From positions 1-64,000 of the forward strand of contig JALFNS010000010.1 of NCBI GenBank assembly GCA_022773945.1: 64,000 nucleotides of DNA. Reading direction: 5' to 3'. The notes under the pieces are model-generated. The model made no database searches, was not told the DNA's origin, and saw only the letters and a list, made by a program, of their open reading frames with translations. The position numbers were made by a program, and so were the translations under genes. Of this stretch, positions 57,815 to 60,121 are shown piece by piece. Source of the stretch: Clostridiales bacterium (GTDB lineage: Bacteria > Bacillota > Clostridia > Peptostreptococcales > Anaerovoracaceae). Numbering within the stretch: the first letter of the stretch is position 1; the number at the start of each line of letters is the position of its first letter.

Positions 57815-58441
57815 TCAGAATAACTGTCCCGGCAGCTTCAGTTTTTCCTTATAAGGGAATTCTCTGTCGAAGGCTTCAGCTTCCGCCTCATCAACCATAT
57901 AGCCTGCCGGAGGTGCATATTCTCCGGTAACGCCATCCAGATATCCCGGTATAAGTTCCCTGCACAGAAAGAAAGATGCATCTTCTCCTTCAGGAAGGCC
58001 ATGATAGCGAATGCCGTATTCACCGGCATATGTGAAGCCGCTCCTGCCGTAAAAGTCTATGTTACCCTCGAAGCAGAGAGCACCGCATCCCAGCTCCCGG
58101 GCCTTCTCCAGCGAATAGTCCAGAAGCATCTTGCCGTAGCCCTTTCTCTTAAGCTCCGGAGTTATGCATATAGGTCCCATAGTCATGATAGGAATCTCTC
58201 CGCCATCGTCTGAGGCTATATTGGCTCTCATGAACATATTCTGTCCGATAATTTTCCCGTCAAGCAGCATGACAAAATCAAGCTCGCTGACGAAGGCAGA
58301 ATCGTTTCTGAGCCGGTTGATAACGTAATGTTCGAGACATCCGGGACGATACACGTTCCAGAAGCTCTCGCGAATCAGGTTTTCGACTTCCCTGTATTCC
58401 TCTTTTCTCTCTAATCTTATAGTAATGTTATTTTCATTCAT
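57815..58441 (-). CDS. GNAT-family N-acetyltransferase
   Basis: MTMGPICITPELKRKGYGKMLLDYSLEKARELGCGALCFEGNIDFYGRSGF. Confidence 0.9.
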   Translation of the reverse strand: MNENNITIRLERKEEYREVENLIRESFWNVYRPGCLEHYVINRLRNDSAFVSELDFVMLLDGKIIGQNMFMRANIASDDGGEIPIMTMGPICITPELKRKGYGKMLLDYSLEKARELGCGALCFEGNIDFYGRSGFTYAGEYGIRYHGLPEGEDASFFLCRELIPGYLDGVTGEYAPPAGYMVDEAEAEAFDREFPYKEKLKLPGQLF

Positions 58442-58695: not shown

Positions 58696-58974
58696 TCTGA
58701 CAAAATCCTTTCCCTCACAAATTTTTTGTCAGACTCTGTAACTAAGCTAAGGGATTTTCTGACAAGAACCGCGGAACCGGAATATACTTTGTCAGAAAAT
58801 CTGACCTGCGTAAGCGTTGAAAGCTAAATCGCGAGAGAGTTAGGCAGAATCTGCTCTGTTGCCCTCCTCTGTTCTGACAAAGCATCCTCTTATCAGTAGA
58901 ATCTTGTCAGAATTCAGCAAAACCTGAACCGGGACTCTGACAAGAAGGGTAGCGATTTTGTTGTTTTTGTCAGA
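58696..58974. repeat. Alternating inverted 8-mer array (TCTGACAA/TTGTCAGA), eight sites at about 31 bp pitch
   Basis: Forward sites at 58696, 58758, 58873, 58936; reverse sites at 58726, 58789, 58904, 58967. Steps 30, 32, 31, 84, 31, 32, 31 bp. Confidence 0.9.
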
Positions 58975-60121
58975 AATTGAAGTGGCCTATGTATATATCA
59001 TTTATCATGCACCCGACTGCCGCTTCAAGGTCCCGACGGCAGCTTTCCGTAATCTCCTCAAATCTCCCGGATCCGTCAGATGCCGGGTAAACCTTCCTGA
59101 TTCCCACATCATTCAGGCGACGGCGGGCTTCCGTGGTTTTCATCTCATCCGAGATGCATCCGACCACCGCCACTGCCGGCACGCCCCGAGCTGCAGCCCT
59201 TCTTCCGACACCGCTGGCCACCTTTCCCATAAGACTTTGCATGTCCAGACGGCCTTCGCCGGTGATTACCAGATCGCATCCCTCAAGTAGCTCGTCGAAT
59301 TCCATAATATCAAGAATGTAATCGATGCCTTTCTTCAGCTCCGCCCCCAGGAAGGCGCATGCACCGGCACCCATACCTCCGGCGGCACCGCCTCCTCTTA
59401 TGCAGGAAATATCGATTTTCATCTCCCGGAGCACTGTATCGGCGAAAACCCGAAGGTTTCTGTCCAGAAGCTCAACCTGCTTCTCGTCGGCACCTTTCTG
59501 GGGCGCGAAAACATATGCCGCACCATTCTCGCCGTAGAGGGGATTGTCGATGTCGCACATACAGCTGATTTCAATGCCGGCGAGCTTTCTCTCCGTAACG
59601 CTGTTGTCAATTCTCACTATTTCATCCAGGCTCTCTCCTGTCGGCATGAAGGCTTCCCCCTGTTCATTGTAGAACACGGTGCCCAGGGCCGCCGCCATTC
59701 CCGTACCCGCGTCATTGGTGCAGCTGCCTCCAAGACCTATGAGAATCTTCCCGCATCCTGAGGATACCGCATGATCTATGAGCTGCCCCACACCATAGGT
59801 TGACGAGGTCATAGGATCACGAAGGTTATTTGTCACCATACCGGCAGCAGCCGCCATCTCTATCACAGCAAAGTCTCCGAACCTGCCGTAGCCGCTCTCA
59901 ATCTCCCAGCCAAAGGCATCCTGAACGCTGACCTTGATTCTTTCTCCATTCATTCCGTGAAGAAAGCAACTGAGTGTCCCCTCGCCGCCGTCGGCGACGG
60001 GAAGAGTTACGAACCTGCACTCAGGGAAGGCTTCGGATAACAGTCGGTATTCTATATTACACACTTCTTCGGAACTCATTGTTCCCTTGAAGGAATCGGG
60101 AATAATAATACACTTTTTCAT
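58970..60121 (-). CDS. Glycerate kinase
   Basis: IIPDSFKGTMSSEEVCNI...VADGGEGT...LIGLGGSCTNDAGTGMAAALG...GGGAAGGMGAG...VITGEGRLDMQSLMGKVASGV. Confidence 0.94.
   Translation of the reverse strand: MKKCIIIPDSFKGTMSSEEVCNIEYRLLSEAFPECRFVTLPVADGGEGTLSCFLHGMNGERIKVSVQDAFGWEIESGYGRFGDFAVIEMAAAAGMVTNNLRDPMTSSTYGVGQLIDHAVSSGCGKILIGLGGSCTNDAGTGMAAALGTVFYNEQGEAFMPTGESLDEIVRIDNSVTERKLAGIEISCMCDIDNPLYGENGAAYVFAPQKGADEKQVELLDRNLRVFADTVLREMKIDISCIRGGGAAGGMGAGACAFLGAELKKGIDYILDIMEFDELLEGCDLVITGEGRLDMQSLMGKVASGVGRRAAARGVPAVAVVGCISDEMKTTEARRRLNDVGIRKVYPASDGSGRFEEITESCRRDLEAAVGCMINDIYIGHFNF

Follow-up and report, generated by a model that had tools for sequence, protein, structure and literature searches.

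A helically phased array of alternating inverted 8-mers in a Clostridiales genome, a candidate array-only copy of a two-part element with PD-(D/E)XK-like partner genes

The window (the whole stretch of 64,000 nucleotides analysed, from a 1.83 Mb Clostridiales genome, G000) carries an array of the 8-bp word TCTGACAA and its reverse complement TTGTCAGA in the intergenic space between a GNAT acetyltransferase gene and a glycerate kinase gene. All eight sites reported in the first-pass annotation were recovered, at 58696, 58726, 58758, 58789, 58873, 58904, 58936, and 58967, with strict alternation of TCTGACAA and TTGTCAGA and steps of exactly 30, 32, 31, 84, 31, 32, and 31 bp. The second half again reproduced the first at an offset of 177-178 bp. 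The gap between the two genes, previously given as about 530 bp, measured 528 bp (from 58441 to the end of the glycerate kinase ORF at 58970), and the overlap of the eighth site with the glycerate kinase stop codon was seen as described. Ten occurrences of the word were found in the window against 2.75 expected, eight of them inside 279 bp. The features of the locus are listed in Table 1.

Table 1. Coordinates of the array, its units and neighboring genes in the window, and of AAA_16 ATPase genes in the relative G065 (given by locus).
Feature	Position	Strand	Description
Whole array	58696..58974	+	four 38-39 bp inverted-repeat units
Unit 1	58696..58733	.	TCTGACAA-N22-TTGTCAGA
Unit 2	58758..58796	.	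TCTGACAA-N23-TTGTCAGA
Centre between array halves, 76 bp	58797..58872	.	84-bp step in type A copies, 74 in type B
Unit 3	58873..58911	.	TCTGACAA-N23-TTGTCAGA
Unit 4	58936..58974	.	TCTGACAA-N23-TTGTCAGA; last site overlaps glycerate kinase stop codon
Glycerate kinase gene	58970..60121	-	host neighbor, outside element
GNAT acetyltransferase gene	57815..58441	-	host neighbor, outside element
AAA_16 members in G065 (five of nine)	L171:4644-5747, L118:11305-12402, L176:3017-4105, L170:3901-4992, L121:16184-17275		

The array belongs to a dispersed family, as one of the options in the first-pass annotation had it. G000 has a minimum of 18 arrays and half-arrays built from the TCTGACAA word, all of them intergenic, and the full eight-site copies are about 285 bp long. 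A scan of the host genome for facing words had been proposed with spacers of 22-24 nt; with TCTGACAA-N18-28-TTGTCAGA we obtained 59 matches genome-wide against 0 for a reversed control pattern, which excludes background frequency and random spacing. Searching by blastn with the window copy identified ten full copies, itself among them, at 77-100% identity, together with a left half (C2b) and weaker relatives. Three layouts were distinguished: type A (steps of 30-32 bp, centre of 84; 10 copies), type B (centre of 74; 5 copies), and type C, in which two units lie 146 bp apart (at least two were read, the others being degenerate). These arrays sit in tandem, convergent, and divergent gene gaps and in every orientation to the genes, and a coding reading was rejected on the ground that ORF frames differ between copies. 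The copy C23b recurs on a contig from a second assembly, JALFXR010000152.1 ("Bacillota bacterium isolate SUG1106").

Similarity among most copies ends abruptly at the outermost sites, and the loci are otherwise unrelated; for the window array, homology to other type A copies runs from ATT-TCTGACAA (about 58693) to TTGTCAGA-AAT (about 58977). Most type A copies also have 12-bp inverted ends, GATTTCTGACAA/TTGTCAGAAATC. Copies C10 and C11 (L039, L040) have partly common sequence just left of the arrays, beyond the array ends, so that one of them may be a larger duplication. Short, dispersed, non-autonomous copies of about 285 bp with inverted ends recall an ordinary MITE, which a DDE or recombinase transposase of conventional type would mobilize, the word being part of its terminal repeats. 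However, we found no target-site duplication (in 15 copies, direct repeats at the flanks were no more frequent than expected), the 4-16 internal sites are phased and all conserved as well as the ends, the 10.5-bp spacing described below is common to dozens of unrelated words, and the linked gene family is PD-(D/E)XK rather than DDE. We consider a MITE very unlikely; given the missing target-site duplication, copying through recombination or repair is a better fit than DDE transposition. With Y1 as the one transposase family searched for, no transposase was recognized adjoining the arrays except the HTH_Tnp_2 protein beside copy C1. The gene for this protein, which has a transposon-related HTH (L032:2239-2736, on G000:C1), begins 173 bp downstream of that copy.

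The contrast between sites and spacers was evaluated in the ten type A copies, which had been recovered by blastn and not by their site pattern. Only 3 of 640 letters were off consensus in the sites, vs. 336 of 2150 in the spacers, and pairwise differences were 0.9% and 25%, respectively. Among type B copies, recovered mainly via the site pattern, the corresponding values were 2.5% and 57%. Because the site letters are near-invariant while the spacers have diverged, a contrast that neutral decay of a repeat cannot yield, the sites are under selection. Units of CGTGACAA have a strongly AT-rich core at their dyad and those of TCTGACAA a moderately AT-rich one, but this does not extend to the words in general (26 of 45, p = 0.06-0.37).

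Successive sites that face the same way are separated by 52, 62-63, 73, 83, 94, 105, 115, 136, and 146 bp, among other distances. When periods from 7 to 16 bp were compared on 112 distinct distances (45 word cores), 10.50 bp came out best (R = 0.73, p ~ 1e-26; p ~ 5e-10 with one distance per word), and jittered controls never exceeded R = 0.38. The helical repeat of B-DNA is 10.50 bp. Since the same-orientation distances are quantized at this period, the sites lie on one face of double-stranded DNA, and the phasing argues for protein binding over an RNA element. The earlier suggestion of a cooperative protein-binding array thus stands as far as the geometry goes (three helical turns, one face), which points to proteins in a row along that face. 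The alternative offered there was a transcribed structured RNA with tandem or alternative hairpins. The inverted sites are able to pair, and the fold check that had been suggested gave an energy slightly better than that of shuffled sequences (z = -2.3 to -2.8), but this z is weak and is what the inverted sites would be expected to give. Stems would be 8 bp with loops of 22-24 nt, Rfam 15 covariance models had 0 matches to the array up to E = 1, spacing is locked to the DNA helical repeat over many words, and arrays are inserted in all orientations to genes. We regard the RNA reading as hardly probable at all.

We also took a comparative approach, scanning relatives de novo for at least four alternating inverted 7-mers; shuffled sequence served as the control and yielded 0 arrays over 852 kb and 1 over 3 x 756 kb. 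All relatives were available as draft assemblies. G065 (estimated contamination about 6%) had many arrays, with the words CGTGACAA, ACTCTGCC, TTAAGGAA, TCGCAGAA, CTACCAT, and TTGCAGAT. Single arrays were found in G003, G033, G064, and G027, and same-order genomes outside the genus had one array in 308 kb. Words are 7-9 bp long, with 4-16 sites per array. In 48 genus mates the TCTGACAA word itself is missing or no commoner than background, and a word-specific sequence model (R1) found no copies there above noise. The absence from close relatives that the first-pass annotation had considered is therefore true of the word but not of the architecture, since arrays built alike from other words are present there. 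Arrays at corresponding positions in G000 and G065 were limited to a few coincidences (at glycerate kinase and thiolase), a number that a rough count did not place above expectation. A three-unit TCTGACAA array with a different pitch (27/25) lies at L053:2278-2416 (G003:C35), in a species without other exact copies; about 120 kb of this contig contained no gene of the nuclease family introduced below except a fragment at L154:4023-4406. Viral contigs had no array and no relative of two proteins of that family.

Three paralogues of one unnamed protein family adjoin arrays of three different words in G065. By profile homology the family is PD-(D/E)XK-like and resembles Holliday junction resolvases. 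Of the 49 genus genomes, 46 encode it, each with 1-14 divergent copies. One taxonomic family of the order accounts for 49 of the 52 positive genomes; members also occur in a second family of the class, and elsewhere in the phylum it is mostly the C-terminal domain that is found, inside longer proteins. The conserved core reads RSKSE...PDFT...WEHxG, with E177, D207, and E221 nearly invariant or invariant. The canonical PD-(D/E)XK catalytic lysine (+2) is absent from its usual place, and because it is not conserved there, nuclease activity, predicted from the fold, may have been lost. All 47 of 47 family members matched the PADLOC PDC-S68 nuclease domain (5e-36); a PHROG Holliday junction resolvase profile matched at 1.3e-5, and T7 endonuclease I weakly. 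The match to a predicted defence candidate, together with the 1-14 divergent paralogues per genome, could point to a defence-related system, where a nuclease directed against foreign DNA would be marked or titrated by the arrays. PDC-S68 proteins, however, far exceed the linked family in length and have the domain alone in common with it, and no known defence gene was recognized beside the arrays in the neighborhoods, which were read non-systematically; we judge this reading highly improbable. The AAA_16 ATPase family was rejected as the array-binding protein, being absent from G000 and not consistently beside arrays. Nine divergent copies occur in G065, the 48 other genus genomes have none, and one member has a weak C-terminal winged-helix match.

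Linkage between this gene family and the arrays was evaluated in 100 family genes. De novo arrays lay within 300 bp of the gene in 34 of them, about two-thirds having no array at the threshold used. Among 42 arrays in family loci, 36 fell within 300 bp of the gene, a zone that makes up 11% of the searched sequence (p = 3e-29). Of the gene-linked arrays, as many lay 5' of the gene as 3' (17:17), which is unlike an operator. This bears on the possibility that the arrays are domesticated regulatory or chromosome-organizing sites, where an oligomeric protein of the host would coat DNA or draw it into loops at dispersed intergenic loci, the gene linkage reflecting a nuclease-fold-derived regulator or autoregulation. 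Near-perfect site conservation long after spacer divergence, phasing on one DNA face, and strictly intergenic placement would all suit such sites. The 3' arrays do not, nor do the complete word turnover between species and the lack of clearly conserved positions between G000 and G065, and we find this explanation unlikely, if worth keeping in mind.

Single words occur both beside a family gene and without one. In 700 kb of G065, CGTGACAA, ACTCTGCC, TCGCAGAA, and TTGCAGAT have one gene-linked array each and 6, 6, 2, and 4 array-only copies, respectively, while TTAAGGAA is so far without a gene-linked array. In G027, one family gene lies between two near-identical arrays, with an array-only copy elsewhere. 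Proteins more than 50% identical across genomes had the same word in three of four clear cases (TATACATAAAA, GGTGTRAA, and GCCAACA), whereas word and protein similarity were not correlated over all pairs (Mantel p = 0.17); that close proteins share words although the overall correlation is absent suggests fast word turnover. In another genus (G257), a TCTGACA array (27,107,27) at L315:1239-1406 lies 65 bp from a nuclease-family gene, whose product has no close counterpart among the five family proteins of G000. Very long gene-linked arrays, with 9-16 sites and periods of 52-53 and 83-84 bp, were seen at L314:11-413, L317:2559-3170, and L319:2594-2935, and look like recent tandem unit duplications.

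The five paralogues in G000 are encoded on contigs C25, C6, C32, C9, and C10. Arrays adjoin the gene for the C25, C6, and C32 paralogues and lie about 1 kb away for C9, all with other words, and no TCTGACAA array was found beside a family gene in G000. The C10 paralogue is the only one of the five with no clear array nearby, and by elimination it may serve the TCTGACAA arrays; otherwise the partner may be lost or missing from the assembly (98.6% complete). This assignment is the weakest link of our explanation. At L113 (G000:C33, about 1400-1520), a lone TCTGACAG unit directly adjoins a run of TTGTCCA/TGGACAA, the word of the C32 paralogue, so that two word families stand side by side.

With a probability of about two in three, the window array is the array-only copy of a two-part element whose PD-(D/E)XK-like gene partner lies elsewhere in the genome and whose copies spread in trans. 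In such an element, each inverted-repeat unit would be a pair of 8-bp words that face one another at a distance of about 31 bp. The units being placed at whole helical turns, a protein could dock on every one of them from the same side of the DNA, and each member of the PD-(D/E)XK family would go with its own word. Array-only copies would enter intergenic DNA, the cognate protein probably moving or copying them in trans, and afterwards selection would keep the sites while the spacers drift.

The closest parallel is found in REPINs and their RAYTs (REP-associated tyrosine transposases), in which extragenic palindromic copies are scattered and word classes each stand beside one nuclease-family gene (PMC3116915, PMC8266576). 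The arrays resemble these in having several word classes per genome, each clustered beside one nuclease-family gene, with scattered gene-less copies of the same word, conserved sites, and variable spacers. The word stood beside its own nuclease-family gene in the tested set (34/100, p = 3e-29), with none seen for TCTGACAA itself. Membership nevertheless fails on the enzyme and on repeat anatomy. The enzyme here is PD-(D/E)XK-like and that of REPIN/RAYT is HUH/Y1; the Y1 HUH transposase (PF01797) had 0 matches in G000, with the same search positive in five control genomes. Words of 7-9 bp in phased double-stranded arrays differ from GTAG/CGTC-tagged single-stranded hairpins, and no common GTAG or CGTC tag was found among the array words listed. 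A REPIN/RAYT-like lifestyle, in which a nuclease-fold protein would recognize and spread arrays of its own word, is the most economical reading.

Other systems share single traits with the arrays. Plasmid centromeres and archaeal origin boxes have repeated protein sites on one helix face, but occupy one or a few loci per replicon rather than occurring as dozens of scattered, many-word copies. PDC-S68, Holliday junction resolvases, and T7 endonuclease I have a C-terminal PD-(D/E)XK domain in common with the linked family, and we know of no linked site arrays described for them. To our knowledge, BOX and RUP repeats of pneumococcus are not alternating-word arrays and no cognate gene family has been shown for them. 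Like the arrays, they are small interspersed intergenic repeats of a Gram-positive bacterium (PMC3049150).

We found no description of such arrays in the open-licence literature, and an earlier account elsewhere is possible. On balance we lean, by a little, towards an undescribed class of bacterial element in which PD-(D/E)XK proteins assemble on phased word arrays and spread them, with one word per protein, words that turn over between species, and a fixed geometry. If true, this would be a second gene-plus-repeat solution beside REPIN/RAYT, one that uses a different nuclease fold and is read in double-stranded form. With 14 paralogues and at least 7 words in one genome, the many pairings of protein and word would amount to a natural library of specificities, and assembly could be tested directly through the strictness of the 10.5-bp spacing.
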